A stretch of 64,000 nt of DNA from Microbotryomycetes sp. JL201. Its lineage: Eukaryota; Basidiomycota; Microbotryomycetes. Position 1 is the first letter of the stretch; every line of letters starts with the position of its first letter. Positions 30,716 through 64,000 of this stretch are shown here, one piece after another. Under the pieces are notes generated by a model. The model saw only the letters and a program-made list of their open reading frames with translations. It was not told where the DNA came from and did not search any database. The stretch is from positions 62,001 to 126,000 of the forward strand of contig JAQYUZ010000028.1 of NCBI GenBank assembly GCA_033819885.1, in the 5' to 3' direction. The position numbers were made by a program, and so were the translations under genes.

Positions 30716-31088
30716 GCGTTGCTGCACCCAATAATTAAACGTATATATCCTCCTTAAACAACATCTTTTGCGCCAAATGAGCTGCCTTCTCACGTATCAA
30801 GCCAGCTGAATTCTCTATGGTTTTCGCATTGCCATCAGAAGGTTCACTCGGCCGCCAGATGTAGCCGAACCACCTCTTCGGTGAACGTGTGTTGGCTACA
30901 TTGTGAAGATAATGACAAACAACGTTTTGCAGCCGGTGTGCGTCCCAGAGTGCATTCAAGTTTGGCTAGATCTGGGATATCTTTTGCGGCTACTGCTTCC
31001 GGAAGGTCATTTTGAGCTCGCATTTTCGCGGCCTCTTGCATCACACCAGTCGCACAAGCTGACGGTCCAACGACGGCGATCGCTCAGC
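30716..31088. other. Upstream region of the SLC35F gene
   Basis: Holds the tRNA upstream signals and the promoter or 5' leader of the carrier gene. An in-frame ATG at about 30912 would extend the carrier by about 59 residues; nothing in that extension looks conserved. Confidence 0.4.
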
Positions 31089-32447
31089 ATGAGGGCAAAC
31101 GAGCCACCAGTGCAGAGCGTCGTACATGGCACGCCCCCGCCACCTTCACCGCTCAACGAGAAGCGAGGCGCAGCCGACGAACGAGTCGCCGCATTACTGT
31201 CACCAGAGCTTGACGACGTCGGCAGACCTTTTGATGACGGTACATTTGGTCCTCCAAGCACCTTGGACGTGTTTCTTGGCCGGGACAGGCGGGCGCGGCG
31301 GCGTGCTGACCCCGTCATTTGGTCGAGGGGCTGGCGGCCGTTTGTTGAATCGCTGTCGCGCAGGATAGGCGGCATATTCACTAAGCGGTTCATGTATGTC
31401 GAGATCAGATCAATTGGGACCAGTCAGCTGAACAAGATTATTGGTTGCAGAATCTGCCTCTTGCTGGGGCAGCTCCTTTCGCTCGCAATCACATCAACCT
31501 CGGTCACGACGACGGAGCTTATCGACAGACAATGGTCGATGCCAACATTTCAAACTTTTTTTCTTTACGCCATTCTCGCGCTCGTGTACACGCCGTACAC
31601 AATCTACGCTTATGGAATTTCGGCCTACGCAGAGATGATTATGTCGTGGCAAACCATTGCGTACATCCTTCTCGCACTTGTGGACGTCGAAGCCAACTAC
31701 GCCGTCTTGAAGGCCTTTACGTATTCTGACTTGCTGAGCTGCATGCTTTTGGATGCGTGGGCGGTTCCGGCCTGCATGATATTTGCCTTCGTCCTCGTCC
31801 GAGCGCGTTACCACTGGTCTCAAATCCTTGGAGTCATCGTTTGCATCGGCGGACTCGGCCTACTGGTAACCAGTGACTGGCATACGGACAAAGTCGAACA
31901 AGGCAAGAACAAGGTGCTCGGAGACCTACTCATGCTGGCCGGCGCCACTGGTTACGGCTTGTCAAACGCCCTCGTCGAGATGTATGTCCGCCAGCGACCA
32001 ATGTACGAGGTGATGGGTCAACTCGGGCTGTGGGGTTGCTTCGTCAACGCGGTGCAGTCGGCCGCCGCTGAGCGCAAGGTCTTTGCTACCGTGCCGTGGT
32101 CTGTTCCGGTTATTGGACTGCTGGTCGCCTACACTTCGGGCATGTTGGTCCTATACACCTTAGCGCCAATCGTCTACCGGCTTGCATCGTCACCGTTCGC
32201 CAATATCAGCATTCTCACGTCCGATTTTTACGGACTTCTTTTCGGCGTGGTCCTCTACAAGTACAAGCCATACTGGCTGTATTTTGTCGCATTCGTACTT
32301 ATTCTGGTGGGTCTCGTCATCTACTTTTCCGTGGCACGACCCGAAGACTCTGGTGCGCTAGAAATCCGTGCGAGAGGCAAGTCGCAGCTTCAGCAGCGGG
32401 GCGGCTCTGGAGGACAACGCCTCGGCGCAATCAAAGTCGAAAGTTAA
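31089..32447 (+). CDS. SLC35F-type solute carrier (drug/metabolite transporter superfamily)
   Basis: Ten-helix carrier resembling the SLC35F1/F2/F6 group. A proline-rich cytosolic N-terminus (MRANEPPVQS) precedes LLLGQLLSLAITSTSVTTTEL, QTFFLYAILALVYTPYTIYAYG, the DVEANYAVLKAFTYSDLLSCMLLDA block, WSQILGVIVCIGGLGLLV, GDLLMLAGATGYGLSNALVE and YKPYWLYFVAFVLILVGLVIYF. DVEANY and the AGATGYGLSN region are characteristic. A probable 57 bp intron (31394-31450, GTATGT to TTGCAG, with CTGAAC inside) is divisible by three and stop-free, so it reads through. Removing it gives KRF-IICLLLGQLL, which suits the family. Cargo is unknown. Left-arm copy; the twin is at 62406. Confidence 0.87.
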   Translation: MRANEPPVQSVVHGTPPPPSPLNEKRGAADERVAALLSPELDDVGRPFDDGTFGPPSTLDVFLGRDRRARRRADPVIWSRGWRPFVESLSRRIGGIFTKRFMYVEIRSIGTSQLNKIIGCRICLLLGQLLSLAITSTSVTTTELIDRQWSMPTFQTFFLYAILALVYTPYTIYAYGISAYAEMIMSWQTIAYILLALVDVEANYAVLKAFTYSDLLSCMLLDAWAVPACMIFAFVLVRARYHWSQILGVIVCIGGLGLLVTSDWHTDKVEQGKNKVLGDLLMLAGATGYGLSNALVEMYVRQRPMYEVMGQLGLWGCFVNAVQSAAAERKVFATVPWSVPVIGLLVAYTSGMLVLYTLAPIVYRLASSPFANISILTSDFYGLLFGVVLYKYKPYWLYFVAFVLILVGLVIYFSVARPEDSGALEIRARGKSQLQQRGGSGGQRLGAIKVES

Positions 32448-32877
32448 TTGTGCATAATTCATATCAAGCATCAAATTGACGCAACTGTAGCATCCCTATC
32501 TCTGGCATCCTTTTTTTTTCTGATTCCTTTTCGGCATATCATTGTTCGGGCCAGTACAGCAATGCATCGAGCATTTTTGGCCCAAAAAAATGTTGTCTGA
32601 GAGTGCACGACATCCGCAAGATTTCTGTTTGACCATCAGAAACGACTCGGCGGTCTCGCGCAGCTCACTTTGCATTCGCCTTCGATCACGTTTCTACGCA
32701 GCCTTTGCTCGCCTCGGTGCAAACACACGCTTCAGCCAAACTCGCCATCTAGCCACGTTGACCACAGTCTCGCTCGCCCACGCCGCCTGGGATTTTTTTT
32801 GTGCCCGAACGACACCCGATCCGTGATCTGCCAACGACGGCGCTTCCGAGTTTCTCGCCTCACCAGTCACCGTCCTC
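32448..32877. other. Intergenic region between carrier and 4EHP-like gene
   Basis: A 430 bp gap with several A- and T-runs. It holds the 3' end of one gene and the promoter of the next. No further element was recognised. Confidence 0.4.
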
Positions 32878-34292
32878 ATGTCTGCTCGACCAACTCTGCT
32901 GACGCAGACGTCTGCTGCTCGCCGTCGCGAGCCGTCGTTTCCGTCGCAACAGACTCGCGGCTCGACGACGGTCTCCGGCGCTTGGGCCTCGACTACGGCG
33001 TCGAATGCAGACGTGAGCTCAAACAGCTCACCGACAGGCGCGGCGGCCGCTCGCAAAAAGGGCCCTTCGCTGTCGCTAGCGCTCTCGGCAAACGAAGGCG
33101 ACCACGCCGAAATTCATCCGCTCAAGTTTACATGGGACGTCTGGGTGTCGCACAGGAGTGCCAACAGTAAAGGAAACAAAAAGGAAGAGGCAACAGCGGT
33201 CGGAGCAAAGCCAGGCAAGGAAAAGGAAACGAGGGAAGAATGGGAGGGCGCCGTCGTTAAACTGGGAGGCTTCTCGAGCGTGAGTACCGTCACGCTCAAC
33301 ACGCTTGACATTCGCAACACCAATACTAAATCTCTCGTAAATGCCCTCCGCTCTGGCAGATCGAATCCATGTTCCCGTTCCTGGCTCATTTGACGCCACC
33401 ATCCGCCCTGCCGTCATCGGTCAACTCTTCCTCGCAGCTCTTTGGGCAAGACCTAAGCGAAGGGCATGCGGCATCCAACAACGTCACCGACTATAATGTC
33501 TTTCGGTCCTCAATTGCGCCCGCATGGGAGGACCCTGCCAATGCCGGTGGCGGTCGTTGGGTGACGCGGTTGCGCAAGGGTGTAGCCGACCGTGTCTGGG
33601 AAGAGTCTATCTTTGCTCTAGTGGGAGAGCGCATTGGCGGAGAAGATGATCGCATCGAAAATAAGATCAATGGCCTTGTTCTGAGCGTGCGCAAGGACGA
33701 AGACATCCTCAGCCTGTGGTGCGCGCCGACAAACAGATCTGAACGCGATGCGATCCGGTGAGAGCAAACATCTCGAGGCAATTCACGTGTGGATAGGACA
33801 TTGCTAACTGTGCGATTTTTGATCAGTGATGCATTCCGTGCTGCGCTTGAGCAGAGTTTGCCAGCACAAACTGCTTCGAACTTTGTGCTCGACTACAAGC
33901 CTCATCCCGGACCAAACGGCACAATCGCGGCGCCCGCTGCTCGACACGATCGAGAGCGGACAGAGTCGCCGCACCGGTCTGAGCGCCCTGACCGTCGCAG
34001 CGAGAACGGTAATGGCGGACGACATCTAGACAGAGACAGGTCAGAGACGAATCAAGCTATGGGGGTGCCACCTCTGAGCGGTTTTGGTGGCGAAGGTGCG
34101 AGAAGAGGGGTCAATTTCGGTGACAGATCTGGATCTCGAGGGTTCTCGGGCTACGTCAGAGAGCCCAGGGACAGGACGGACAGCGCAACCGGGTCAACAG
34201 GATCTGGTGGAAGCTATGGGCGGCCAAGACGCGGTAGCAACGCTCGTGCAGACGGCGACGCCAAGTCCCATTCGGGCTGGGGCCGTGCCTGA
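32878..34292 (+). CDS. eIF4E-family cap-binding protein, 4EHP-like (class II)
   Basis: Three exons joined by two introns. A serine/threonine-rich N-terminus leads into HPLKFTWDVWVSHR. LGGFSS is then spliced to IESMFPFLAHLTPP, followed by FRSSIAPAWEDPANAGGGRWVTRLRKGVADRVWEE and INGLVLSVRKDEDILSLW. The run RWVTRLRKGVADRVWE and the following block resemble animal 4EHP (eIF4E2), which binds caps to repress rather than start translation. The first cap-stacking Trp (eIF4E VEDFW) is replaced (IESMF), as in class II, while the second is kept in PAWEDPAN. The C-terminus has a long Arg/Gly/Ser tail (GFGGEGARRGVNFGDRSG), unlike animal 4EHP. Left-arm copy; twin at 60561. Confidence 0.86.
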
Positions 34293-34388
34293 AGGGAAAT
34301 AGTGCAATACTATGCGTGATACCTGCTCGTCTCCAAAACACGCAAGGAAGAGTTGAGATGCGAGCTTGTTGTTACAACAACCGAGGGT

Positions 34389-35837
34389 TCAGTGCGCAGA
34401 CTTCTTTTTCTTGTTTGATGTCTGGGAATCTTCATCGTCGTTCCAGAGTGCGAGACCCTCCCTCAGCAAGACGATCGAAATCTCGAATGCGATCAACAGA
34501 ATGATGATCCATTCAAGGAAATGACTTGTCTTCGTGTTGAGCAATTCGAGAAGGGTCGATTGTAGCTGAAAGGCATAGTCGACACGGTCATTGAGAGTTC
34601 TACCCAGACTGGAGCGTCAGCAACTGCGAAGCATCGGTCTGCCCCAGGACCGACGCACCTGAGTCTCGTGTTGAATTCGAGTGCCCTGCTGACGGCTGCA
34701 TAGTGACCGTGCAGTTCGGCGTCTTCCCACAGAAACTCTGGCTCTTCCAGCAAGTTCTCGTCTTCGAGATTGAGCTTTTGCCTGAATCCGTGCAAGGTTC
34801 CGACGCGTTTGATGATATCCGTCTTCTTGACGGGTGACTCAGAACCCTGCACATTGGCCACACTGAGGATGAGCGACGACTGGTATGGGAGACTGAAAGC
34901 TTACCGACTCCAGCAGCTTCGGAATGCCGGCTATACCCTCTGCGAACGCGTCAAACTGCTCCTCGTAGATCGCAAGCTTTGTGACGCGTGCCATGCCCGC
35001 CGAGAATGCTAGCCGGGCCAACAAGTCGGGACTAGCGATTGAACTCTCGACAGATGCCATGTCGGATGGTAAAGACCCGTTGGCCGACAAGTGTATTGTG
35101 TCGCCTTGCATGCCTGTTGACCTGCAGAACCGAGATCATTGTTCAGCCAGAGCTCATCTCTGGCTCGGACAACCTGGCAATTCTCACCGCCGGCTAATGT
35201 AGAAGTCGAGCGCCTCTTTTTCGACTTCGTTGTACCTGCCTTGCTCCACCCAGCCAAGTTCTTGTGTAGTTGCCGTGGTGGGTGGAGTGCCTCTGATGAC
35301 TTCTCTTAGGAAAGATTCTGCACCGCCCGCTGCAAGGCCCCACGTGACAATTGTACCGCTCTCAAACACAAACACTTCTCCTTCCGGTGCCGCATCTGCC
35401 GAGCTCTGGGGGCGCCACTGGGGCAGATAGATAGCCTCGCCGAGCAGGTTAACCGCGCCACCTTCGCCGAGTAAGCCGAGCGCATCGAGGCTTTTGAGCA
35501 GCGCGGCCGTGTCGTAGTTCTCCGCCGATGTAAGTGCGACTGCCTGTCCGTCCGGAGGCCTGGACGACTGCTGCCTGCCCAGTCCGAGCGTTGGCATGAG
35601 CGACATGAGCGCGTGCGCGTCGCCTTGCGGGCCACGAGCGAGGGCCGGTGTTGCTGGCGCTGGCATTTTCGCTTTGCTCTTCTTGGCTTTGTGCTTCTGT
35701 GGCCGTTGCGGAGGCAGTGCTGCTATCGGTGCGGACCTCGTCGTCGCGCTCGTGCCGGTCGCTGCCGCCGAGCTGACGGCACGGCAGGCGCTCGACCATC
35801 GGACAGGCCGAGCTAGGCTGTTGAACAGCGCTTGCAT
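34389..35837 (-). CDS. RMD1: RMD1/RMND1 family protein (DUF155), probably mitochondrial
   Basis: ATG 35837 opens a positively charged leader (MQALFNSLARPVRWSSACRAVSS) that looks like a mitochondrial presequence. A lysine-rich linker and the DUF155 domain follow: EVFVFESGTIVTWGL, ELGWVEQGRYNEVEKEALDFYI, RVTKLAIYEEQFDAFAEGIAGIPKLLES, KRVGTLHGFRQKLNLEDENLLEEPEFLWED and DYAFQLQSTLLELLNTKTSHFLEW. A C-terminal membrane helix (IIILLIAFEISIVLL) and a short lysine-rich end complete it, stop at 34389-34391. Three introns. Homologues act in meiotic division (yeast Rmd1) or mitochondrial translation (human RMND1); the leader favours the latter here. Divergent from the LRR gene, with starts 119 bp apart. 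Left-arm copy; twin at 59016. Confidence 0.9.
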
Positions 35838-35955
35838 AGCTGAGCCGGTGCTGGGCTGCGCTCGAGTCGCTCGTGCGTGGACCCCAAAAAAGTTTGGAAA
35901 GACTCGATCGCGCGGCTGAAGCGACTCGGCTTTGGACCACTCTGTCTCGACCGAG

Positions 35956-38111
35956 ATGCCGCCTCCGCATGCATCAACATCAAAGCACCCATACCCCGCA
36001 AAGAGGGCCAGGACAGGCAGCAACGCCGCACCCGTTGGCTTCCGCCGCCCGAGCTCACAACTCGCAGCCCATGATGATAGCTCGGAGGCGCCAAGGCGGC
36101 CGTTGACCAGCGACGGCAACCACAAAAGGCCTCGTACAGACACCGCTGCTGCAGCTCGAGGCAGGACACTGAGCTTGGCCGGCACTGTCATCGAAGCCGT
36201 GCCCGACCTGACGGGCGTCTCAAAATTAGACCTGTCAAACTGCAAGCTCACAAAGCTAGACTTTGTCAGGCATGCAAAGGACACGCTTACGTGGCTGAAC
36301 GTGTCGGGTAACAATCTGAGCGCACCAGACGCCTTTCAAGGCGTCCAGGAGCTCGAGCACTTGTCAGGTCAGTCTGCTCGGTCAACCGGCCTTCTTTCGC
36401 TCACTCATCCTTTTGACGGTGCCTCAGTGCTCAATGTCAGCAACTGTGCTCTCAAATCAGTTCCGTCCTGCGTTAGCAAACTCAGATCGCTCAAGGCATT
36501 CGTCGCCACGCACAACTCGTTCCGCAAGCTGAATCATCTCGCCAACTTGCCAGAGCTTAACACGATTAGTCAGTCGCTGTTTGGAATCTTGGCAGCGACT
36601 GTATCGCTGACCGTATAGCAGTCGTGTCGCACAACAAGCTTGAGAGCTTGCCGACAGAGCTCGCCACCTTGCCATCGCTCAAAAAGATCTCAGCGTCGCA
36701 CAATCGCCTGTCTGCTGGCTCGCTGCCAGACTTGTCGGCGTTGAAACACCTCAAAGAGATCAAATTCAACGACAACCCTACACTCGATAGTCTGCCAGAT
36801 CACTTTACGGCGTGGGGCAAGTTTGGACAAGTCGGTGCGACAAATTCTGGAGACAAAACGAAGCATAGTGGCTTGGAGATTGTCGACTTCGGCAGTTGTG
36901 GATTCAAAGAATGGGTCTCGCTCAGGCAACTGGCAGCTCATTCGGGTGTGTACAACCTTGTCCTGAAAGGGAACCAAGTTACGACAGATGCATTGGCTGA
37001 TACGAGCTTTGACGAGCTCAAAGAAAAGGTCAGTGGGTCCGTTGAGATGGAGTGGTGCAACATCTCTGACCTGTTTCGCCACCTGTTCAAGATGCTCATC
37101 TTGCTGCCAAACCTGCGCGTCTTTGACGGACAACGGTTTGATGCAAAGTTTCAGGATTTAAAAGCTCGGCGTGACGCGCGTGCACCAGAAGACAAGGTGC
37201 TCGACGCCGGTCCGATGGGTCTCGCCATCAACGCTGCCAAGGAGGAACCTGTTGCCATTTCGCACGAGGCCATGACGAAACGCATGCAAGCCAAGCGCGA
37301 CAAGTTGATTGAAAAGCGTTTAAAAAACGGTCTCGAAGTTAGGCGTGATTGGCTGAGAGAATATGAGCAGAGAAAGGGCTCGGGCGACACCACGAAAGAC
37401 CAGCAAGATGAATCTGCCGAGGTCGACGGCGTTCTGCGCCACAAGAAACGCAAGACGGTCGATTCGGATGAGGATAACGCCAAGGGGCAATCAAGCGAAG
37501 ATTCTGTACCAAAGAAAAAGAAGAAAAACCGGCACGAGGCTCGAAGGCAGGCTGGCGCTGAAGCACAAGCCGACCGATCAGCAAAAACTGCGGAATTAGC
37601 TGAAGCCGAGCAGACTGCGGTGACTGCCGAAGAGAAAAGTCCTACGGCTGCAGCAGATGCACCGAATATCTCGACAAAAAAGGCAAAGGCGGACAAGAAA
37701 GCGGCGAACGACCCTCTTGTTGATGCATTGGCGGCAGTCGACAAGTCAAAAGACGCTGCTGCACCGCCTGCTGAGAAGCCGAAGAAGAACAGGCACAAAA
37801 AAGACAAGAAACCTTTGCTGGCCGACCTTCTCGGCTCTGAGCAAGACGAACCGCGGCTGGACGCATCAAAACCAGCGACGGCATCCACAGAGCTCAAAGA
37901 CGAGGCCGAGGAACCCGAGACTAAGGAAAAGACATCGATTCTCAAGGTTGTCGAAGTGCGAAAGAAGAATGACAAGAAGTCAAAGGGCAAGCAAGTGGCT
38001 CAAACAGCTGCTGTGGAGTCTTTGCTTGGTCTCGCCGCCCAGCCTGACCAGGGAGCACAAGATGCGGCCGGAGACGAAAGTCAAGGCCTCGTCGGTCTTG
38101 GTTGGGATTGA
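35956..38111 (+). CDS. Leucine-rich-repeat protein with lysine-rich acidic/basic tail
   Basis: The basic N-terminus (MPPPHASTSKHPYPAKRAR) could be a nuclear signal. LRRs follow: VSKLDLSNCKLTKLDF, LTWLNVSGNNLSA, VLNVSNCALKSVPS, VSHNKLESLPTEL, KISASHNRL and EIKFNDNPTLDSLP. The last repeat caps with LLPNLRVFDGQRF. A probable 63 bp intron (37029-37091, GTCAGT, CTCTGAC, TTCAAG) is divisible by three and stop-free; removal joins SFDELKEK to MLILLPNLRVFDG, the usual LRR cap. The C-terminal 300 residues are charged repeats with K-runs (KKKKKNRHEARRQ, KPKKNRHKKDKKP), reminiscent of nucleolar proteins. Two more introns interrupt the LRR part. Specific function unknown. Left-arm copy; twin at 56742. Confidence 0.8.
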
Positions 38112-38139
38112 CTTTAGACAATTCCCCTTTGTTGTAATT

Positions 38140-39366
38140 TCATACCAGCGCTACGCCACCAGCCGTTGACCCCGCCTTCCACTTTCTCCCGACTCGCTCA
38201 GCCGTCCGGTGAGCAAAGGCGTCGCCGTATATGTCAAAAGAAATCTCCTCGGATGTGTTTTGCTGATGAACTTGTCGTAAAGCTCTCTCAAGAGGCAAGG
38301 TAAAGGTGAAGACGGAACCAAGCTTCGGAATGACTGCAGTGAACGGTCAGCGCACCTGTCAGCGTCCGTTGACTGGATAAGCACAGCGCACTCTTGACGG
38401 GTGCTTTTGGCACTGCAAACTTAAAAGTTTGTTGCGTTTCCTGGACTATGATGCCTTCGATATTGACGAGAGCTGGATTCTTGGCTCTTTTAACTGCACG
38501 TGCAGACCGTGCAGACCACGTCACTGTCAGAGCCGGTACAGAGTCTTTCTTTTCAATTTTGATCAAGCCTACCTCTCATTTTACAACCAACGAATTCTGC
38601 TTTGAGCAATTTGGTGTGGACCGCGTTTACGTTTATTGCCGGGTCCAACGTTGCAACAGCGGCAGCCGTCGACCGCGAAGGAAACGCCGGATACAAGGTC
38701 TCACATCTACTCGTGGGCTGTCGAGGCTCGTGTTCCTTGTCTTGTGTCGGTAGCGACACGAGCGGTGGCACGCGCAGTGGCAATTGAAGCATGTCGGCCA
38801 TGTATCCGAGCCACAGGCTGTGAATAGACTCAGCGGCCGGGTAGCTGCAAATAATGTGTCGAGATTCTCTCAGCAATGTACGCACGAAAAAGCATGGTAT
38901 GATCTGACCTCAGTCGAGTCTGCAATCGTCCTCGTTTGCGTTTTTTGCGACCGACAAGCCCGCACTCGGCCTCGTACGTGTCCTTGTACCTGAATTTGCG
39001 CTGTTCTTTGGCTGTAGCTTTTGTCTGCAGCTCATTCTTGCGTTTGTCGCTTGTCTTGCCCTTTGGTGTCTCGAGCTGCAGAAGCTTGTTGGCTACGCGC
39101 TCGGTCACGTCGTTATCGTCCATATTGAAATGGTGCTTCCATGATCCGATCTGCATGCGCTGATCTGGATCGAGCTGCAGTAAAGCAGACAGAACGCACA
39201 GTCAGTGGTCCGTGCTCGTCCATGCTGCTAGGCTCTACGCGCGGGAGTCCAAGACAGCACGACATCTGTTTTCGAATTAAATGTCAAGACCCACTCGTTT
39301 GCGCGTGACCTGGGCGAGAGGGTTGTAGCCTTGCCAGGCTGACGGCCGATTGTCGACTTTGTCCAT
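38140..39366 (-). CDS. POP4: RNase P / RNase MRP protein subunit Pop4 (p29)
   Basis: Pop4 is a core protein of RNase P (tRNA 5' processing) and RNase MRP (rRNA processing) in the nucleus and nucleolus. The N-terminal exon starts MDKVDNRPSAWQGYNPLAQ (ATG 39366). A basic exon has HFNMDDNDVTERVANKLLQLETPKG and GRKKRKRGRLQ. The family core is LKAEFVGCKM, then AVKRAKNPALVNIEGIIVQETQQTFKF, then VIPKLGSVFTFTLP, ending GDAFAHRTAERVGRKWKAG, which matches the known Sm-like fold region. About five introns. The first donor (GTCACG) is weak, so the first exon is less certain; an in-frame ATG at 39558 is an alternative. Its stop lies 28 bp from the LRR gene stop. Left-arm copy; twin at 55487. Confidence 0.88.
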
Positions 39367-39575
39367 GCTGCTTGCAGCAGAGGGAGCAGTGAAACGAGCG
39401 TGTGCCGGATTCAAACAGAGTTTTGTGTTAGCTCGAGTGCGGAGGCTGCAAATGAGGCGCCGTAATGAAGACTGATCAAGGGTTTGCACGTGATCAGCTG
39501 TTTTTCGGGCTGCTTGGGCGTTGCCAAACTCGAATTGCACTCTTCGTTTGTTCGGCACCTGCCATTACTCGAAGC

Positions 39576-41328
39576 ATGTCCTTGCCATTAAAAGGAATCA
39601 GAGTTCTCGAGGTGGGCTTTCGGAGCGACATCATGTACATGAATGCGTTGCGAGCTGACCCCGCACTTTGCGCGACGATGCAGCTCGCCGGCTTGGCGCC
39701 AGGACCGTACTGCGGCAGTCAGTTGAGCATTTGCCATATCATGCGCATTCCTCACATTGACACCACAATGCACGACAGTGGTTCTGGCCGACTTTGGAGC
39801 AGATGTTGTGAGGGTCGACCGGCTCGGCACGTCCTTCAACCCCGACACTTTAACGAGGTCAGACGCAGATCGTAGTCTATACAACCTCCACGGCTCTCAC
39901 CTGATTCATCCCTGCAGACACAAGCGGTCGCTGTCTTTGTCTGTGAAATCACCTGCTGGCGTTCAGCTGCTGCAGACGCTGCTCTCGAGCCCCACGCAAG
40001 CCGGATGCTCCAATCCGAACTGCAAGTGCGCGAGCACGGAGCAAGCAGCCTGCGCAAACAACAGTAGAGGCGGCGCGTGGCGCGCAGACGTATTAATCGA
40101 CCCCTTTAGACCGGGAGTGCTCGAGCGGCTCGGGCTTGGACCCGACAAGCTCCTGCAAGCGAATCCGAGACTAATCATTGCGCGCTTGACCGGGTTCCGA
40201 AGAGATGGTCAGAAAGACAAGTTAATGTTGACGACTGTTGCGAGCTGACGACATTGTTCTGCTTGAACAGGTCCATACTCCATGATGGCCGGACACGACC
40301 TCAATTATATCGCTCTCAGCGGAGTGCTCAGTAAGCAATCTATGCCTCCGTTGCCATGCTTCCTGTGAGCGCTCATCTGCGACGACAGGTCTGCTCGGTC
40401 GCAGGGGCCAGAAGCCGTACTTCCCTGCCAATATCCTGGGTGAGTCGACCCAGGAAATTGATATTCAATTTTGTGACGGATGAATTGTTCAGCCGACTTT
40501 GCCGGAGGAGGACTGATGGCCGCAATGGGGGTTCTGATGGCCATCATCGAGCGCCACCGAACCGGACTTGGACAGGTGGTCGAGGCAGACATGGTGGGCG
40601 AGGTCACGCAGACTCGAGACATTCTGCATACTGAAATCTCTTCATCTCAAATTCAGGTCACCGGAGCGCGCTACGTCTCGTCGTTCCCTCTCATGTTGTC
40701 GCAACCTTCGACTGGATTGCCCCTATGGGACTCTGAGCGAGGTGACAACTTTCTGGATGGTGGAGCACCATGGTACGAAGTGTACGAAACAAAGGACGGC
40801 TTATATATGACGGTAGCAGCTCTCGAAAACCATTTCTACGCCACTTTCCTCAATACGCTATTGCCGGCTGTGCCTCGCGATGTCATCCCAGCTTCGCCGC
40901 CGACCCCTGCGACACAGATGGACAGATCCACGTGGCCGGCTTTGTCCGACTTTTTTACGAAGGCGTTCCTTACCAAGACGCGTGATGAGTGGACACGCGT
41001 CTTTGTTGGCACCGACTCGTGTTGCGTTCCTGTTTTGAATCGCTGGGAAGTCGATTCTCGTGGCGTCGGCAAGCACGAACCAGGGTTCCAAGCTGCTAGC
41101 TCGCAAGCTGGAGGCGACGGAGGCGTGCCGAATCCTGCTCCTATCTTGTCACGTACGCCGGCGCCGAGTGCCGCTGGAACTGAGGGATCGTACTTTTTGG
41201 AACCGGGGTCTCACACGAGGGCTGTTCTTGAAGAGGCAGGACTTGGTGCAGAAATTGGTCGTCTAGTAGCGCAGAAGGCCGTCTCGCTCGCGGACAGTGA
41301 TGACGATGCCCCTCAGGCAAAGCTCTGA
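39576..41328 (+). CDS. Alpha-methylacyl-CoA racemase / family III CoA-transferase, PTS1-bearing
   Basis: AMACR-type enzymes epimerise 2-methyl-branched acyl-CoAs for peroxisomal or mitochondrial beta-oxidation. Exons join to [40 protein letters not shown], then [20 protein letters not shown] and [13 protein letters not shown]. Expected catalytic sites are visible: His in [14 protein letters not shown], Asp in PANILADFAGGG, and Glu in [18 protein letters not shown]. The protein ends in AKL, a type 1 peroxisomal signal. About six introns; the first (39612-39683, 72 bp) is divisible by three and stop-free. Unusual is an insert of about 30 residues before ADVLIDPF with four close cysteines ([11 protein letters not shown]). 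Left-arm copy; twin at 53525. Confidence 0.9.
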
Positions 41329-41388
41329 TAGAAGCCGAGGCATGTGAAGCTGAGGACTCTTCTTCCTCCGTAATGGATTTTTTGTGCT

Positions 41389-41445
41389 GCCCCCGTTCTA
41401 TCCTGTAGATGACCGAGTGATGAATTGCAATGAATAGTTTATTTT
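41389..41445 (+). repeat. Dispersed motif, copy A (left inverted end)
   Basis: Begins CCCCCGTTCTAT and contains GATGACCGAGTGAT. About 48 of 55 positions match copy B at 42225-42278, which lies in the opposite orientation. A second partial copy of ATGGATAGTTTGTTT follows near 41460. The two copies form inverted ends around a segment of about 890 bp that holds a tRNA and an orphan reading frame. Confidence 0.65.
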
Positions 41446-41912
41446 AAAAGAAAAATGCGATGGATAGTTTGTTTAGAAAAAAAAATGATAGACATTCCTG
41501 GCCTTGACCGGTTCTGCAACACGTGAACCTTGATCGCGTCGATCATTTCCAATGTCCTAGCAGTATCCTGGTACTGTGCCGCTGATTGCTCGGTATATGA
41601 TCGATTGATCAACAAAACGGTCAGGCGATACTCGTCACGCTCCAACTCCGTCACGTGACCCTCACGAGAAAAATTAGAGAGAGCGCGCCGCATCTGGCCA
41701 AGATCGCCTTCATGCAGTCCGATCAAGACTGAAGGTATCGAAATGATACATTCAGGGTCGTGCGGGGCTGTGTGCGGCGTCAAGGCCAGGGAAAAGGCGC
41801 AGATTGGGTATGCAAAAGCTTGAGACGCTGTCACGCCCGGAGAACATCTTGGGAAGACACGCCAGCTCGTCATAGGTTTTAAAATAACACCAGAACTACA
41901 TTGATGGAACAT
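41439..41912 (-). CDS. Orphan reading frame, 157 residues (uncertain)
   Basis: An uninterrupted frame inside the segment bounded by motif copies A and B. The middle part (HVTELERDEYRLTVLLINRSYTEQ, TARTLEMIDAIKVHVLQNR) looks protein-like, but the last residues read through motif A and no known family is recognised. It could be a chance frame, a decayed fragment, or a small gene of the segment itself. Left-arm copy; twin at 52941. Confidence 0.3.
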   Translation of the reverse strand: MFHQCSSGVILKPMTSWRVFPRCSPGVTASQAFAYPICAFSLALTPHTAPHDPECIISIPSVLIGLHEGDLGQMRRALSNFSREGHVTELERDEYRLTVLLINRSYTEQSAAQYQDTARTLEMIDAIKVHVLQNRSRPGMSIIFFSKQTIHRIFLLK

Positions 41913-41971
41913 AATGCTGCAAGATACAACTTTGCACTACATATACGCATAACGTATTTCCGCTTCAACGC

Positions 41972-42056
41972 GCCCGGTTAGCTCAGTCGGTAGAGCACCA
42001 GACTCTTAGTCTACCAGATTATCTGGTGGTCGTGGGTTCGAGCCCCACATTGGGCG
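41972..42056 (+). tRNA. tRNA-Lys(CTT) with a 12-nt intron
   Basis: Identical in sequence to the genes at 5313 and 30631. CAACGC directly precedes it and a TATAC run at 41942-41946 lies 30 bp upstream. TCTCTTTTT provides the Pol III terminator. It lies inside the A/B-bounded segment on the left palindrome arm; the mirror copy is at 52797-52881. Confidence 0.96.
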
Positions 42057-42224
42057 TCTCTTTTTGGCCGTCGCGACTGTCCTTCCATCGCGACTCTACC
42101 ATTTTTTTTCCCCCGCTCAATAGTTAGGTGGGATGTGAAAGGATTATGAAGCATGCCACTCGTATTTTGAGTGTGCGGCCTAGACGCCACACGCCGGTGC
42201 TTACTTTCTCCTTTTGTATCGCAC

Positions 42225-42278
42225 ACAAACAATCCAATGCAATTGATCACTCGGTCATCTACAGAATAGAACGGGGGT
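42225..42278 (-). repeat. Dispersed motif, copy B (right inverted end)
   Basis: Inverted partner of copy A. Read on the minus strand it starts CCCCCGTTCTATTCTGTAG and continues GATGACCGAGTGATCAATTGC. It lies 168 bp beyond the tRNA-Lys 3' end and about 65 bp beyond the stop of the minus-strand dehydrogenase gene. Confidence 0.65.
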
Positions 42279-42342
42279 AGTAGAACTGATAGTACTTTTC
42301 ACAATCAAGTGGCCGCTCTGGCACATGCATGCGATACACGTC

Positions 42343-44092
42343 TCACAAGCGCGTCAGCTGGGGAGCTTTATCAGACGCAGGCGACGAGAATTTTGTCTCG
42401 ATGAACACCTTGACAATGTGTTTATCTCGCTTGTCAAACTCGGTGTAGCATTTCGCCGTGTCTTCAAGTGGGATACTATTGAGTTCGCGTAAGATCAATG
42501 TTGCGTTCATCTGAGATTCAAGATCTGATGCAGCTCACCGATGGCTCACGATCAGCTCGCGAGGGTCGACCTTGCCCGTGATGAGATAGTCGTCGAGGAT
42601 TTCTTTCCAGTACTTGTAGACTGGCGCCTGTCCGTTGCCGATGAGTCTATAGACCGATGGTTGTTTAGACAAGTTTTTGCCTTTCGCCGTTTGGAAATGC
42701 TTACCGGACGCCTTTTTGCATGACGGCGCCCATATTGAGATGGTTGACAAAGCCGGCGTACACTCCAGTGATACCGACCGTGCCGAACGGACGGACACTC
42801 AGACTAGCAAATGCCCGTCAGTAATGGCTGGAGAGCGGACCACTTCCTTTTGCTCACATCATTTCGTTAAGAATCTCACTTGTGTCAGTCTCTGTACCAT
42901 TGCATTCGATCGTTAGTGCTTTGTGCTATACCGAGGGACAGATATCACTTACCAAGTCCCACTGCGGTTTCAATCTTGTGCGTGAGGCTCTTGGCGTACT
43001 CTCCAGCAGCACACTCGAGGGCGACATCAATACCTTCGGGGCGCGTTGGGTCGAGTCCGTGCGTTCCACCTTTTGTCAATTCGTTCACGCGGGCGGCCAC
43101 GTCCTTGTGCTCGTCAAAATTGAGCAACTCAATTTTGTCGCCAAGTTTCTCTTTGACATAGTCAAGGCGCCACTGCACGTTGTCAATTACAATGATGCGC
43201 GATGCGCCTTTGAGAAGGCACCACTTTGCGGCGAACACGCCAATCGGCCCGACTCCCCAGATGCCCACAGTGTCGCCCTCTTTGACGCCGCTGTCCACAA
43301 CTTGATGATACGAGGTGACAAGTACGTCAGATAGATACAGTGCAGACTCGTCTGGCACGCTGTCCGGAATCTGAAGCAAGTTTGTGGACGCGTAAGGCAC
43401 GCGAACGAACTCGCTCTGACCACCGGCCCAGCCGCCCGTCAGATGAGAGTAACCGCTCATGCCCGAAGTGCGGTTGCCATACATCATCTGTATGATATTT
43501 GAGCTGTTGACCTGACTGCAAGCCGAGGACAGCTTTTGCTTGCACATGAAGCAATTGCCGCAAGCCAAGTTGAACGAGGCAACGACACGGTCGCCAGCTT
43601 GAATGTTGGTGACACTGTCGCCTACCGACTCGACAATTCCCATGAACTCGTGCCCAAGAATGTCGCCCGAACGCATCTCAAGCAAAGCACCATGCAGGAG
43701 GTGCAAGTCGGAACCTGCGCGTTGTTATGGCAAAGCAGCATCAGTAAAAAGATTGTTGATAGCTCGAACGAATATTTACTAAGCTTGACTCACCGCAGAC
43801 TGTGGTGCCCGTCACTTTGATGACAGCGTCCGTCGGTTCGACCACGCGAGGCTTGTTGGTTTCGATCATGCGCACATCTCCTTTGCCGAACCAGGCGAGT
43901 GCCTTATAGTGTGACATACCAAAGTTAGACCTTCGCTGTCGACCCATTGAATTATTCGGCGCTGACCTTCATCTTCTCGCCGGACGGGTCCGCGAACCGA
44001 TCTGGCTCATTGCCCGGGTTGGCATTGTCGGCTGTCGTGGCTGCAGGGTGATTACCCAAGGCTTTGCCGAGAAGATTGGAGGCAGTGTTCAT
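42343..44092 (-). CDS. Zinc-dependent MDR alcohol dehydrogenase, formaldehyde-dehydrogenase-like
   Basis: ATG 44092 opens MNTASNLLGKALGNHP. The catalytic core begins ALAWFGKGDVRMIETNKP, with TTVCG joined to SDLHLLHG (catalytic Cys region) and GHEFMGIVES. Structural zinc cysteines are in CGNCFMCKQKLSSAC. The nucleotide-binding GVGPIGVFAAKW follows, then IIVIDNVQWRLDYVKEKLG. Later small exons give LSVRPFGTVGITGVYAG, LIGNGQAPVYKYWKEILDDYLITGKVDPRELIVSHR and the end ETKFSSPASDKAPQLTRL. About seven introns. The long loop with GMSGYSHLTGGWAGGQSEFVRVPYA resembles glutathione-independent formaldehyde dehydrogenases and their relatives; the true substrate is unknown. Left-arm copy; twin at 50761. Confidence 0.9.
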
Positions 44093-44371
44093 GACTATTG
44101 ATTGAGATCAAAGAAGAGCAAGGAGGCGGAGGAGTGGCGGGGTTGCGCGCGTCGCTTCAATGACGCGCAGGAGCGAGCGAGCGAGACTGCAACAAAGGTC
44201 ACGTGATGGGATTGACGACCACAGTATAATTTCGCCCTGGCCTGTCAATGACAGCTGTGATTACCCCTTGATCTCGACGAGTGCCCGAATTATGGACAGT
44301 ATTCTTGCTACATTTCTGGCCACGCGCTGCGCGGCGCCCCGTGGGTCGCCTGCGACGACAAAGACCAAATC

Positions 44372-46507
44372 ATGGCGCAAGGTAAGTCAGCGCGACACGC
44401 ACGGTCAACGTCGTTGTGCACATTGTGATCCGAGTGATCAGCATGTCGTTGCCTGTTGCGTGGCGTGTGCAAGGCTGCAGCCGTGGACCTGCGCTCTTAC
44501 TGACCACGAGGTGCATTCTCCCTAAGCGCTGGCATCCATGGTCACGCTGCGCTACTCGGGATTCCTTAATATGGCTCCCGACAATCTCGGCTTCCTTGGA
44601 GAGGACGACGATGTGCTGATGACCAAATACACGGCCGCGACCACCGGGCAGCCGGCTCTGAGCAGCGACGACGACTCTGGATGGCGGGTCTCTGTCGAGC
44701 TCGACAAGGAAGGCAGGACAGAAACAGGGCCGACTGCCTGCTGGCGCAGCGGCGAAACCCTCTGTGGCGTTGTGCGCATGCAGCACGCCGATCCGGCGAC
44801 TCCAGGCGCCCGGCGAAAACGAATCGCCTCTGTCATCGCTCGCGCGTTCTGGCAGAGCTCGACAATGTACAGAGTCGCAAAAATCGTGCCCGAAGAACCA
44901 AAAGCGGGCCTATCAAAGGTGTTCAAATCGGCCAACGCCTTCAAGACAGTCGCAGAGCTCAGAGGCGAGTGGCACCGATCCGAGTTTGGCGAAGGAGCAG
45001 AGCTATGGCACGGAGGGGAGCTCGAAGACATCAGTCGTGAGGTTGAAGGCGATTTTCCACTGCTAGCGGCCCAATCAAGATCGCAAGCGGCAGATTCGGA
45101 ACCGTCACCGCCAGCCTGGCACGAGAATCGCGACCTTTATGATTTACCGTTCCGTATCACACTTCCAACAGTATCCAGGGTGACCTCATGCAACGCGCTT
45201 CCCAATGGCGGTCCTCTGCGGCGACAGCTACAACACTTCAAACGCACCCCGCCATCCTCGCTGAAAGGAACCGATGTCCAGGCCGGCGCCATAGAATGGA
45301 TCGTCGAGGTCATTGTCCGCTATATGAACGAGTCTGGCGCTCAAGTCACGCCGGCAGAGGCAGCATCTGCAACGAGCTTGTCGAACCCGGACGGTGCTCA
45401 AGATGGCGACCTGCCATCGTTCCCAGAGGCCGTCAATGAGGGATCAGACGGTTTTGACGAGTTTGGGCTGCTTCAGCCCTCGGACAGCTTGGCCGTCATA
45501 CGGACAGTATTTCCATTCGAGCCACTCGATCATCACGTTCAAGATCTATACTCGGCATGGCGACCGAAGACCGACGTCCCATGGGCAGAGCCCGTTGCCA
45601 GATACAATGGACTGACTTTAGAGGAAATCGAAGACCCTCGGCCAGTCAGTGAGGGCATCGTGCCTAGCTTCGGCCGGGATCCTCGGGATGAGGCGCTCGG
45701 AGGCTCGCACATGGGCCCGAAGCGGAAAACCTTGTCGACGCTGCTTGAGGTTGAGGGAGGCAGGGAGAAATGGATAGGGTACGAGAAACGCATGTCTGTC
45801 AAGGGCCGCTTCGGCCGCTTTGTGGCGTGGATTCGTAGCGAGGTGAGCCAGTATCCGTAATCGGGCAAAGCCTAATCGAGCTCACGGCGAATGTGTATCA
45901 GATGCACATTCCGAAACCGGCCACAATCAATCGCCACGACTCGCATTTGACCGTCCTGTGCCACTTCAGTCTTAAGACGACCGCGTCGACCGCAAGCGGC
46001 CCACCTCGGACGCTGAGCGTTGAAAAGGTCGTTGTCGTTCTGACTAGGCGAATCTTGACTCGAGGCGGACGCGACGACAGGCCAAAGTACGGCCTCGAGG
46101 AGGTGAGGAGGGAGGAGCTTAAATTGTGGGAACCACAACAGGATGCCTTGACGAGGATGCGGACCCTACTTCCAGCTGTCTCTCGCGCGAGCCTGCGCGA
46201 GGGAGAAGTCGAGGAAGGCCGCGCACATCTCAAACTCGTCTCTGGTGAGCCTGGCGTCGACCTAAGGCTCGAGATACCCCTGCAAGGAGACGACTTGACG
46301 ACGAAAGGTCGGAGAAACGTGCCAACACGGGAGCTGCACCTGAGCACGCGTGCGCCCAACATCGAGCTTGAATATGTCATGTCTATCACTGTCCATCCAA
46401 TTGGCCAGCCTTCCTTTTATGCGGCTAGGGTCCCCGTGCAGCTGCTCGCAGGCGATCTCGTGCCACCGCCACACTTTGACGTGCCCGAGCAGCCCCCAGC
46501 GTATTGA
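44372..46507 (+). CDS. Large protein with probable arrestin-like fold
   Basis: A continuous exon from about 44527 encodes a beta-strand-rich protein of about 450 residues, starting MVTLRYSGFLNMAPDNLGF. An intron near 45842 leads to a C-terminal exon with LTANVYQMHIPKPATINRHDSHLTVLCHFSLK and SITVHPIGQPSFYAARVPVQLLAGDLVPPPHF, ending PEQPPAY at 46507. The pattern (alternating strands, LPFRITLPTVS, IEWIVEVIVRYMN, then a second sandwich) suits fungal arrestin-like trafficking adaptors, but no diagnostic motif is conserved. A tiny first exon (44372-44381, MAQ plus one base) followed by GTAAGT and a 145 bp intron is likely; otherwise ATG 44538 is the start. Left-arm copy; twin at 48346. Confidence 0.6.
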
Positions 46508-47104
46508 CTGGATGATGTAGCTGCCTGAATGCAATGTTGTTGTTGTTCTCGGATACTTGTTTGATATCTCATGACAATCTTTCGAAGATCATCGTCACCT
46601 GGCCGCAGCTGCAGTCGCTTGTACTAGAACACCAAGGTCGAGCAAACCGTTCACTCAGAACAGAAGCGGTTGAGCGTCGATCATCAGACCGGAACAGTCA
46701 GCAACCACGCCTTGCGTCTCTAACCAGAACAATGATTCGATCGCTGACTGTATCGCGTACCCGAAGAATTTGTTTCGAGAAAAAGAAACTCTGTAGCTTT
46801 TATTGACTCCACGTGCATGAAGATCTTGTATGGATAGTTTGTGGGTTTCTTTTGCACTCGGGGTTGCGGACAAGAACAAAGAAGCGACGGAGCGACGGAC
46901 TAGGCAAGATGCGGCATCGGCAGGGGTGCAAAGTTTCGCGCGAGACGATCGAACAAAGGGACGGCGGGCGCGACAAAAGGGAGACCGGAACAAAAGCAAT
47001 AAACCAGCAAGACGGACGACGAGTAAAGAAGGACGACACGATCTCTCTTCTTCCTTTCTTCAAGATCGTTTGCAACATTCAGTTTTCGCTACTGCTCGGA
47101 TAAG
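46508..47104. other. Region upstream of the central gene
   Basis: A 597 bp stretch between the arrestin-like gene and the central gene. It contains pyrimidine-rich promoter-like sequence just before 47105 and one ATGGATAGTTTGT word at about 46830. Overlapping frames here show no conserved features. Confidence 0.4.
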
Positions 47105-47602
47105 ATGCCCTTCCCCACTTTCAACGACCCGGCCGACGCACACGCGTTCCACATCGGCAAAGCTTTTCTCGCCCGAACGGCGTTGGACGCAATCTCGGAT
47201 TCGTACTTCGACGAGGCGTGCATCGCACTTCGATGCTCTACGGCGGGATATCAGGCTACAGCGGCGCTGCTGTACCTTAAGCGCCAGCTCCAGCTGGAGG
47301 CCGAGCGCCACGAAGCCGCCGTCGGAGACGGCGAGGATGCCCTGGCGGCAAGTCTTGAGGAGGATAAGGGGCCTCAAGGTGCCGACGTTCGGACTTCAAT
47401 TCCCATGATCGACACTGCATGGGCGGTGTTGAGTCGCGAACGGCGCGTCCTCAACGCTGAACGGGCCGAATTTCGACAGCGAGTAAGAGAGGTCGCGACC
47501 GACAGGAGTTGGGCGCCCTCGCCGTCTCCGACGTCGGCTTCGTGGCGCTCGGCCTCCAGCTGGAGCTGGCGCTTAAGGTACAGCAGCGCCGCTGTAGCCT
47601 GA
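47105..47602 (+). CDS. Central gene, left copy: unrecognised protein cut by the palindrome junction
   Basis: The frame starts MPFPTFNDPADAHAFHIGK at a credible start after a pyrimidine-rich leader. It continues FLARTALDAISDSYFDEACIAL and YQATAALLYLKRQLQLEAERH. At 47337 it leaves the arm, crosses the whole unique spacer with a protein-like sequence (SRERRVLNAERAEFRQRVREV, helix-forming), and then enters the right arm backwards, where it becomes serine-rich and stops at 47600. So the first 77 or so codons are shared with the minus-strand copy, the spacer codons look native, and the end is an artefact of the junction. No family recognised; the original C-terminus is missing. Confidence 0.55.
   Translation: MPFPTFNDPADAHAFHIGKAFLARTALDAISDSYFDEACIALRCSTAGYQATAALLYLKRQLQLEAERHEAAVGDGEDALAASLEEDKGPQGADVRTSIPMIDTAWAVLSRERRVLNAERAEFRQRVREVATDRSWAPSPSPTSASWRSASSWSWRLRYSSAAVA
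47337..47516. other. Unique spacer at the palindrome centre (180 bp)
   Basis: The only part of 30853-64000 without a mirror. It is bounded by a short imperfect inverted repeat: 47311-47342 pairs with 47511-47542, with mismatches at 47319, 47337 and 47338. The left copy contains the small hairpin GCCGTC-GGA-GACGGC. Confidence 0.9.
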
Positions 47603-56713: not shown

Positions 56714-56741
56714 AATTACAACAAAGGGGAATTGTCTAAAG

Positions 56742-58897: not shown

Positions 58898-59015
58898 CTC
58901 GGTCGAGACAGAGTGGTCCAAAGCCGAGTCGCTTCAGCCGCGCGATCGAGTCTTTCCAAACTTTTTTGGGGTCCACGCACGAGCGACTCGAGCGCAGCCC
59001 AGCACCGGCTCAGCT

Positions 59016-60464
59016 ATGCAAGCGCTGTTCAACAGCCTAGCTCGGCCTGTCCGATGGTCGAGCGCCTGCCGTGCCGTCAGCTCGGCGGCAGCGACCGGCA
59101 CGAGCGCGACGACGAGGTCCGCACCGATAGCAGCACTGCCTCCGCAACGGCCACAGAAGCACAAAGCCAAGAAGAGCAAAGCGAAAATGCCAGCGCCAGC
59201 AACACCGGCCCTCGCTCGTGGCCCGCAAGGCGACGCGCACGCGCTCATGTCGCTCATGCCAACGCTCGGACTGGGCAGGCAGCAGTCGTCCAGGCCTCCG
59301 GACGGACAGGCAGTCGCACTTACATCGGCGGAGAACTACGACACGGCCGCGCTGCTCAAAAGCCTCGATGCGCTCGGCTTACTCGGCGAAGGTGGCGCGG
59401 TTAACCTGCTCGGCGAGGCTATCTATCTGCCCCAGTGGCGCCCCCAGAGCTCGGCAGATGCGGCACCGGAAGGAGAAGTGTTTGTGTTTGAGAGCGGTAC
59501 AATTGTCACGTGGGGCCTTGCAGCGGGCGGTGCAGAATCTTTCCTAAGAGAAGTCATCAGAGGCACTCCACCCACCACGGCAACTACACAAGAACTTGGC
59601 TGGGTGGAGCAAGGCAGGTACAACGAAGTCGAAAAAGAGGCGCTCGACTTCTACATTAGCCGGCGGTGAGAATTGCCAGGTTGTCCGAGCCAGAGATGAG
59701 CTCTGGCTGAACAATGATCTCGGTTCTGCAGGTCAACAGGCATGCAAGGCGACACAATACACTTGTCGGCCAACGGGTCTTTACCATCCGACATGGCATC
59801 TGTCGAGAGTTCAATCGCTAGTCCCGACTTGTTGGCCCGGCTAGCATTCTCGGCGGGCATGGCACGCGTCACAAAGCTTGCGATCTACGAGGAGCAGTTT
59901 GACGCGTTCGCAGAGGGTATAGCCGGCATTCCGAAGCTGCTGGAGTCGGTAAGCTTTCAGTCTCCCATACCAGTCGTCGCTCATCCTCAGTGTGGCCAAT
60001 GTGCAGGGTTCTGAGTCACCCGTCAAGAAGACGGATATCATCAAACGCGTCGGAACCTTGCACGGATTCAGGCAAAAGCTCAATCTCGAAGACGAGAACT
60101 TGCTGGAAGAGCCAGAGTTTCTGTGGGAAGACGCCGAACTGCACGGTCACTATGCAGCCGTCAGCAGGGCACTCGAATTCAACACGAGACTCAGGTGCGT
60201 CGGTCCTGGGGCAGACCGATGCTTCGCAGTTGCTGACGCTCCAGTCTGGGTAGAACTCTCAATGACCGTGTCGACTATGCCTTTCAGCTACAATCGACCC
60301 TTCTCGAATTGCTCAACACGAAGACAAGTCATTTCCTTGAATGGATCATCATTCTGTTGATCGCATTCGAGATTTCGATCGTCTTGCTGAGGGAGGGTCT
60401 CGCACTCTGGAACGACGATGAAGATTCCCAGACATCAAACAAGAAAAAGAAGTCTGCGCACTGA
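59016..60464 (+). CDS. RMD1: RMD1/RMND1 family protein, right-arm copy
   Basis: Mirror of 34389-35837, with the same leader, DUF155 blocks and C-terminal membrane helix. Confidence 0.9.
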
Positions 60465-60560
60465 ACCCTCGGTTGTTGTAACAACAAGCTCGCATCTCAA
60501 CTCTTCCTTGCGTGTTTTGGAGACGAGCAGGTATCACGCATAGTATTGCACTATTTCCCT

Positions 60561-61975
60561 TCAGGCACGGCCCCAGCCCGAATGGGACTTGGCGTCGCCG
60601 TCTGCACGAGCGTTGCTACCGCGTCTTGGCCGCCCATAGCTTCCACCAGATCCTGTTGACCCGGTTGCGCTGTCCGTCCTGTCCCTGGGCTCTCTGACGT
60701 AGCCCGAGAACCCTCGAGATCCAGATCTGTCACCGAAATTGACCCCTCTTCTCGCACCTTCGCCACCAAAACCGCTCAGAGGTGGCACCCCCATAGCTTG
60801 ATTCGTCTCTGACCTGTCTCTGTCTAGATGTCGTCCGCCATTACCGTTCTCGCTGCGACGGTCAGGGCGCTCAGACCGGTGCGGCGACTCTGTCCGCTCT
60901 CGATCGTGTCGAGCAGCGGGCGCCGCGATTGTGCCGTTTGGTCCGGGATGAGGCTTGTAGTCGAGCACAAAGTTCGAAGCAGTTTGTGCTGGCAAACTCT
61001 GCTCAAGCGCAGCACGGAATGCATCACTGATCAAAAATCGCACAGTTAGCAATGTCCTATCCACACGTGAATTGCCTCGAGATGTTTGCTCTCACCGGAT
61101 CGCATCGCGTTCAGATCTGTTTGTCGGCGCGCACCACAGGCTGAGGATGTCTTCGTCCTTGCGCACGCTCAGAACAAGGCCATTGATCTTATTTTCGATG
61201 CGATCATCTTCTCCGCCAATGCGCTCTCCCACTAGAGCAAAGATAGACTCTTCCCAGACACGGTCGGCTACACCCTTGCGCAACCGCGTCACCCAACGAC
61301 CGCCACCGGCATTGGCAGGGTCCTCCCATGCGGGCGCAATTGAGGACCGAAAGACATTATAGTCGGTGACGTTGTTGGATGCCGCATGCCCTTCGCTTAG
61401 GTCTTGCCCAAAGAGCTGCGAGGAAGAGTTGACCGATGACGGCAGGGCGGATGGTGGCGTCAAATGAGCCAGGAACGGGAACATGGATTCGATCTGCCAG
61501 AGCGGAGGGCATTTACGAGAGATTTAGTATTGGTGTTGCGAATGTCAAGCGTGTTGAGCGTGACGGTACTCACGCTCGAGAAGCCTCCCAGTTTAACGAC
61601 GGCGCCCTCCCATTCTTCCCTCGTTTCCTTTTCCTTGCCTGGCTTTGCTCCGACCGCTGTTGCCTCTTCCTTTTTGTTTCCTTTACTGTTGGCACTCCTG
61701 TGCGACACCCAGACGTCCCATGTAAACTTGAGCGGATGAATTTCGGCGTGGTCGCCTTCGTTTGCCGAGAGCGCTAGCGACAGCGAAGGGCCCTTTTTGC
61801 GAGCGGCCGCCGCGCCTGTCGGTGAGCTGTTTGAGCTCACGTCTGCATTCGACGCCGTAGTCGAGGCCCAAGCGCCGGAGACCGTCGTCGAGCCGCGAGT
61901 CTGTTGCGACGGAAACGACGGCTCGCGACGGCGAGCAGCAGACGTCTGCGTCAGCAGAGTTGGTCGAGCAGACAT
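60561..61975 (-). CDS. 4EHP-like eIF4E protein, right-arm copy
   Basis: Mirror of 32878-34292, identical in the cap-binding core and in the Arg/Gly/Ser tail. Confidence 0.86.
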
Positions 61976-62405
61976 GAGGACGGTGACTGGTGAGGCGAGA
62001 AACTCGGAAGCGCCGTCGTTGGCAGATCACGGATCGGGTGTCGTTCGGGCACAAAAAAAATCCCAGGCGGCGTGGGCGAGCGAGACTGTGGTCAACGTGG
62101 CTAGATGGCGAGTTTGGCTGAAGCGTGTGTTTGCACCGAGGCGAGCAAAGGCTGCGTAGAAACGTGATCGAAGGCGAATGCAAAGTGAGCTGCGCGAGAC
62201 CGCCGAGTCGTTTCTGATGGTCAAACAGAAATCTTGCGGATGTCGTGCACTCTCAGACAACATTTTTTTGGGCCAAAAATGCTCGATGCATTGCTGTACT
62301 GGCCCGAACAATGATATGCCGAAAAGGAATCAGAAAAAAAAAGGATGCCAGAGATAGGGATGCTACAGTTGCGTCAATTTGATGCTTGATATGAATTATG
62401 CACAA
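61976..62405. other. Mirror intergenic region (carrier / 4EHP-like)
   Basis: Reverse complement of 32448-32877. Nothing further was recognised. Confidence 0.4.
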
Positions 62406-63764
62406 TTAACTTTCGACTTTGATTGCGCCGAGGCGTTGTCCTCCAGAGCCGCCCCGCTGCTGAAGCTGCGACTTGCCTCTCGCACGGATTTCTAGCGCAC
62501 CAGAGTCTTCGGGTCGTGCCACGGAAAAGTAGATGACGAGACCCACCAGAATAAGTACGAATGCGACAAAATACAGCCAGTATGGCTTGTACTTGTAGAG
62601 GACCACGCCGAAAAGAAGTCCGTAAAAATCGGACGTGAGAATGCTGATATTGGCGAACGGTGACGATGCAAGCCGGTAGACGATTGGCGCTAAGGTGTAT
62701 AGGACCAACATGCCCGAAGTGTAGGCGACCAGCAGTCCAATAACCGGAACAGACCACGGCACGGTAGCAAAGACCTTGCGCTCAGCGGCGGCCGACTGCA
62801 CCGCGTTGACGAAGCAACCCCACAGCCCGAGTTGACCCATCACCTCGTACATTGGTCGCTGGCGGACATACATCTCGACGAGGGCGTTTGACAAGCCGTA
62901 ACCAGTGGCGCCGGCCAGCATGAGTAGGTCTCCGAGCACCTTGTTCTTGCCTTGTTCGACTTTGTCCGTATGCCAGTCACTGGTTACCAGTAGGCCGAGT
63001 CCGCCGATGCAAACGATGACTCCAAGGATTTGAGACCAGTGGTAACGCGCTCGGACGAGGACGAAGGCAAATATCATGCAGGCCGGAACCGCCCACGCAT
63101 CCAAAAGCATGCAGCTCAGCAAGTCAGAATACGTAAAGGCCTTCAAGACGGCGTAGTTGGCTTCGACGTCCACAAGTGCGAGAAGGATGTACGCAATGGT
63201 TTGCCACGACATAATCATCTCTGCGTAGGCCGAAATTCCATAAGCGTAGATTGTGTACGGCGTGTACACGAGCGCGAGAATGGCGTAAAGAAAAAAAGTT
63301 TGAAATGTTGGCATCGACCATTGTCTGTCGATAAGCTCCGTCGTCGTGACCGAGGTTGATGTGATTGCGAGCGAAAGGAGCTGCCCCAGCAAGAGGCAGA
63401 TTCTGCAACCAATAATCTTGTTCAGCTGACTGGTCCCAATTGATCTGATCTCGACATACATGAACCGCTTAGTGAATATGCCGCCTATCCTGCGCGACAG
63501 CGATTCAACAAACGGCCGCCAGCCCCTCGACCAAATGACGGGGTCAGCACGCCGCCGCGCCCGCCTGTCCCGGCCAAGAAACACGTCCAAGGTGCTTGGA
63601 GGACCAAATGTACCGTCATCAAAAGGTCTGCCGACGTCGTCAAGCTCTGGTGACAGTAATGCGGCGACTCGTTCGTCGGCTGCGCCTCGCTTCTCGTTGA
63701 GCGGTGAAGGTGGCGGGGGCGTGCCATGTACGACGCTCTGCACTGGTGGCTCGTTTGCCCTCAT
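62406..63764 (-). CDS. SLC35F-type carrier, right-arm copy
   Basis: Mirror of 31089-32447, with the same ten-helix pattern and the stop-free 57 bp candidate intron. The remaining 236 bp to the window end mirror its upstream region. Confidence 0.87.
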   Translation of the reverse strand: MRANEPPVQSVVHGTPPPPSPLNEKRGAADERVAALLSPELDDVGRPFDDGTFGPPSTLDVFLGRDRRARRRADPVIWSRGWRPFVESLSRRIGGIFTKRFMYVEIRSIGTSQLNKIIGCRICLLLGQLLSLAITSTSVTTTELIDRQWSMPTFQTFFLYAILALVYTPYTIYAYGISAYAEMIMSWQTIAYILLALVDVEANYAVLKAFTYSDLLSCMLLDAWAVPACMIFAFVLVRARYHWSQILGVIVCIGGLGLLVTSDWHTDKVEQGKNKVLGDLLMLAGATGYGLSNALVEMYVRQRPMYEVMGQLGLWGCFVNAVQSAAAERKVFATVPWSVPVIGLLVAYTSGMLVLYTLAPIVYRLASSPFANISILTSDFYGLLFGVVLYKYKPYWLYFVAFVLILVGLVIYFSVARPEDSGALEIRARGKSQLQQRGGSGGQRLGAIKVES

Positions 63765-64000
63765 GCTGAGCGATCGCCGTCGTTGGACCGTCAGCTTGTG
63801 CGACTGGTGTGATGCAAGAGGCCGCGAAAATGCGAGCTCAAAATGACCTTCCGGAAGCAGTAGCCGCAAAAGATATCCCAGATCTAGCCAAACTTGAATG
63901 CACTCTGGGACGCACACCGGCTGCAAAACGTTGTTTGTCATTATCTTCACAATGTAGCCAACACACGTTCACCGAAGAGGTGGTTCGGCTACATCTGGCG

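Follow-up and report, generated by a model that had tools for sequence, protein, structure and literature searches.

Microbotryomycetes sp. JL201 is a yeast-like basidiomycete fungus of the Pucciniomycotina, and a literature search for strain JL201 returned no description of it. The window, i.e., the whole stretch of 64,000 bases analysed here, corresponds to bases 62001-126000 of contig C21, which comprises 218,852 bases. Its unique half contains three tRNA-Lys (ctt) genes (5312-5398, 30630-30716, and 41971-42058), which are 98-100% identical over about 101-108 bases, while a fourth one (52795-52882) is a mirror copy. At 9714-11633 lies a sulfite-reductase-like frame, for which protein search reports mostly unnamed relatives, the named ones among the matches listed being fungal. 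From position 30853 onwards, the window is organized around a mirror axis, with the following features, C40 and C15 being two other contigs of the assembly.

30853..46829, + strand: portion of flank A, exact mirror of 48024-64000; flank A is mirrored up to the contig end, a doubling that would result from the assembler walking back
46830..46906, no strand: 77-base branch point, reverse complement of C40:1-77, common to flank A and C40
46830..47336, + strand: left arm (507 bases) of a putative natural inverted repeat, same as the right arm except at 47319
47337..47516, no strand: asymmetric spacer (180 bases) of the inverted repeat, with similar sequence in C15
47517..48023, - strand: right arm of the putative natural inverted repeat, most likely leading into C40 in the genome
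48024..64000, no strand: presumably false sequence, flank A copied in reverse in C40's place; exact mirror with no differences, with which the C40 junction competes
47105..47602, + strand: ORF of 165 amino acids (P0001), crossing the spacer and reaching into the right arm, with no Pfam match

The 191-residue stop-to-stop frame that surrounds the 165-residue ORF does not return any Pfam match either. A protein search with a 136-residue query reports two proteins, the window's own and OIV83_003770 (hypothetical protein, Microbotryomycetes sp. JL201), which is 65% identical. The latter comprises 179 residues; residues 1-164 are read unchanged from C15, and the final 15 come from a different frame on that strand. 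The related C15 gene remains open beyond the point where the 165-residue frame ends. At C15:61990-62936, two diverged copies of the repeat gene lie inverted relative to each other; they share 92.5% identity over 320 bases, and 230 bases separate their aligned parts. One of these copies tracks the window sequence up to 47506 and then differs; a few bases past that divergence, the 24 bases of window 47493-47516 recur inverted in C15 (identity at 22 of the 24 positions; E 0.003, from a single comparison). Judged from this short match at one paralogous locus, it looks as if a small template-switch event may have helped create the inverted repeat.

Mirror comparison of the window indicates that each base x of positions 30853-47318 pairs with 94853-x without a single mismatch, that the first mismatch occurs at 47319, and that the next 17 bases match before the asymmetric spacer is reached at 47337-47516. 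The preliminary description of this DNA had reported a stretch, 30853..64000, symmetric about 47426.5, with arms of at least 16.5 kb around a 180 bp spacer. Symmetry, arms, and spacer are all borne out, whereas its extent of more than 33 kb proves too small, the mirror being the whole 218,852-base contig. Indeed, once the remaining contig had been fetched and joined by script, all of C21 is its own reverse complement (x pairs with 218853-x), both ends included, and the palindrome centre is the exact midpoint of the contig. Position 30853 simply reflects where the window ends on the right and is not the start of the palindrome. The mismatched pairs of C21 number 70 (140 positions) and are all confined to its central 216 bases (contig 109319-109534), outside of which the two 109-kb halves do not differ at any base. 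Among the 71 contigs with both ends examined, C21 is the sole one with mutually mirrored ends.

Such exact symmetry, with an asymmetric spacer and an imperfect inner stem at the centre as a fold-back would leave, is what one would see in a real giant palindrome, i.e., an inverted duplication of at least 219 kb or a molecule resembling an isochromosome, which would have arisen when the DNA folded back at a short inverted repeat. We nevertheless regard this reading as very unlikely. The absence of any difference in 109 kb means that the event would have to be very recent, and both halves end at the same base, an outcome that follows directly from a path retracing itself. No tandem telomere repeat is found in C21, ends included, but the contig stops within a dispersed repeat that is itself part of the mirror, and a larger molecule could extend past these ends. 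A telomere-capped isochromosome is unsupported, as the ends of C21 carry no telomere array. CCCTAA arrays are present on 11 of 163 contig ends in the survey described below, so the assembly does reach telomeres. The dispersed repeat covers the first 197 bases of C21 (98% identity to C48, and 79-86% in C15, C22, and C67, where the matching stretches are shorter or of similar length), and at the outer ends of C21 it is an ordinary stopping place for a contig. The longest overlap of these outer ends with the examined pieces of other contigs is 8 bases, so the 77-base signature described below is not seen at every contig end, which is a point against the artefact reading. Of note, the end of C58 matches C21:8034-8110 exactly (77 bases, and 98% over 108), which marks a further branch point close to C21's outer end. 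A fold-back amplification or a broken chromosome, both suggested by the preliminary description, are compatible with the sequence alone, but nothing found favours them over a simpler artefact.

The first 77 bases of C40 (146,318 bases) are identical to the reverse strand of window 46830-46906, as well as to window 47947-48023 (contig 109947-110023), and the sequences diverge thereafter. In the first 8,000 bases of C40, 31-mers common with C21 occur only in bases 1-77, and the 800 bases of C40 past the junction exhibit no meaningful similarity to flank A. The sequence inward of 46830 is therefore entered from two flanks, A and C40. A real giant palindrome would be expected to have no competing flank at its arm, whereas C40 is present as one at window 46830. 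Most simply, the real locus would consist of flank A, the inverted repeat 46830-48023 (1,194 bases), and C40, in this order. The motif ATGGATAGTTTG is found at the arm boundary (window 46830-46841), with one further copy in the contig half (C21 103460, window 41460), located within a 30-base tandem repeat close to a tRNA-Lys gene.

This junction also bears on another possible origin of the join, a fold-back or chimeric read arising, for instance, from a missed adapter in long-read sequencing. Fold-back and chimeric reads yield inverted copies around a centre. By itself, such a read explains neither the 180-base asymmetric spacer and the arm mismatch nor the single 77-base junction with C40, and we rejected it as the cause on account of the spacer and of this junction; that it made the join is hardly credible. 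Since the second contig joins the repeat by exactly one 77-base overlap, a path taken by the assembler over a short inverted repeat is preferred to a stray fold-back read.

The length of this overlap recurs throughout the assembly, which totals 17,152,241 bases in 92 contigs. Terminal stretches of 150 bases were compared for 163 of the 184 contig ends (both ends for 71 contigs), recording for each end the longest exact match from its terminal base to the examined pieces of any other contig. The terminal overlap is exactly 77 bases for 48 of the 163 ends, five of these 48 being telomere arrays, for which the phase of the repeat also matters. None of the ends has an overlap of 78-149 bases and two, where C13 and C32 begin, reach 150 bases, while 28 fall between 20 and 76 bases and 85 below 20 bases. 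The two contigs that open with an identical 150 bases, C13 and C32, may carry a single repeat that was written out in each; searching the genome with C13:1-1500 did not return any match, not even C13 itself. The sharp ceiling at 77 bases points to a de Bruijn graph with k=77, and we infer that the assembly was produced by SPAdes from short reads. Contigs shorter than about 10 kb are absent from the record (the smallest among those examined has 10,602 bases), and further neighbours of the repeat may therefore be missed.

In an attempt to separate the artefact from a real palindrome, k=77 graphs were built from small models of three arrangements: A-repeat-C40, the palindrome without C40, and the palindrome with a separate C40. 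The A-repeat-C40 model yields four pieces, namely A up to 46906, C40 beginning at the base where the real contig begins, and two nodes, one of 489 bases for the repeat (46830-47318) and one of 370 bases for the centre. The palindrome without C40 does not produce any break at 46830. In these models, the graph shows C40 placed at the repeat. The palindrome with a separate C40 gives the same four unitigs as A-repeat-C40, and the graph alone does not distinguish between the two. Indeed, the k=77 graph would be identical were C40 to run into a further repeat copy, but a real palindrome then needs this further copy to account for C40. It is very improbable that C21 represents a real basidiomycete palindrome of at least 219 kb, born of a very recent fold-back at a short inverted repeat, and that C40 is attached to a different copy of this repeat. 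The assembly contains both junctions, as it would if two arrangements coexisted in the culture, most cells carrying A-repeat-C40 and some the palindromic form. However, one arrangement and a wrong path are enough, nothing observed points to a second form, and the probability of such a mixture appears close to negligible.

An assembly artefact is favoured by parsimony, by a mirror that reaches both contig ends, and by a published precedent (see below), and we consider it highly likely that the palindrome is such an artefact and that the real locus is most likely composed of flank A, a short natural inverted repeat, and C40. What a fold-back artefact is expected to leave is found here: end overlaps of fixed length, a mirror that includes both contig ends, and another contig that joins the arm. 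Short reads, a path choice by the assembler, and the order A-repeat-C40 would together explain the contig. If we assume a k=77 graph, both repeat arms would collapse into one node, entered by flank A and by C40. Reads and read pairs would be too short for 1.2 kb, leaving the assembler without a guide across the repeat; it would then have left the repeat via the reverse strand of A, and A would have been written a second time. Window 48024-64000 would thus be a false copy of 30853-46829. The mirror stretch is very probably not a real chromosome structure but one contig written twice, and what remains is probably a small natural inverted repeat or duplication. Among the three origins put forward in the preliminary description (a very recent event, active gene conversion, or a fold-back artefact of the library or assembly), it is the assembly artefact that we retain, in the form of a graph path at the repeat joined by C40 and not of a stray fold-back read.

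If C21 is an artefact, about 109 kb of the draft genome have probably been counted twice, the genes of flank A show up as spurious perfect duplicates, and the draft conceals a probable junction with C40. A cheap check could be applied to other drafts, asking whether a contig is its own mirror and whether another contig shares one k-mer with the repeat arm. If the palindrome were real, it would represent a striking chromosome rearrangement.

The rDNA palindrome of Tetrahymena is a fold-back palindrome formed at a short inverted repeat. Like C21, it possesses large mirror arms and a short asymmetric centre; in contrast, C21 has no telomere array at its ends, and a second contig competes for its repeat arm. 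Another likeness is offered by SPAdes assemblies of Mycobacterium bovis, in which 81 wholly palindromic contigs were reported and judged a likely assembly error (PMC9455707). As described there, and as in C21, the entire contig is palindromic and carries identical genes on both strands. The two cases differ in number, 81 contigs in M. bovis versus one in this fungal draft, and in the cause, which the part of PMC9455707 dealing with these contigs does not trace to a short inverted repeat and a second flank adjoining it, whereas for C21 the competing flank C40 has been identified. C21 looks like the same kind of case as the palindromes described in that part of PMC9455707, with its likely cause visible.
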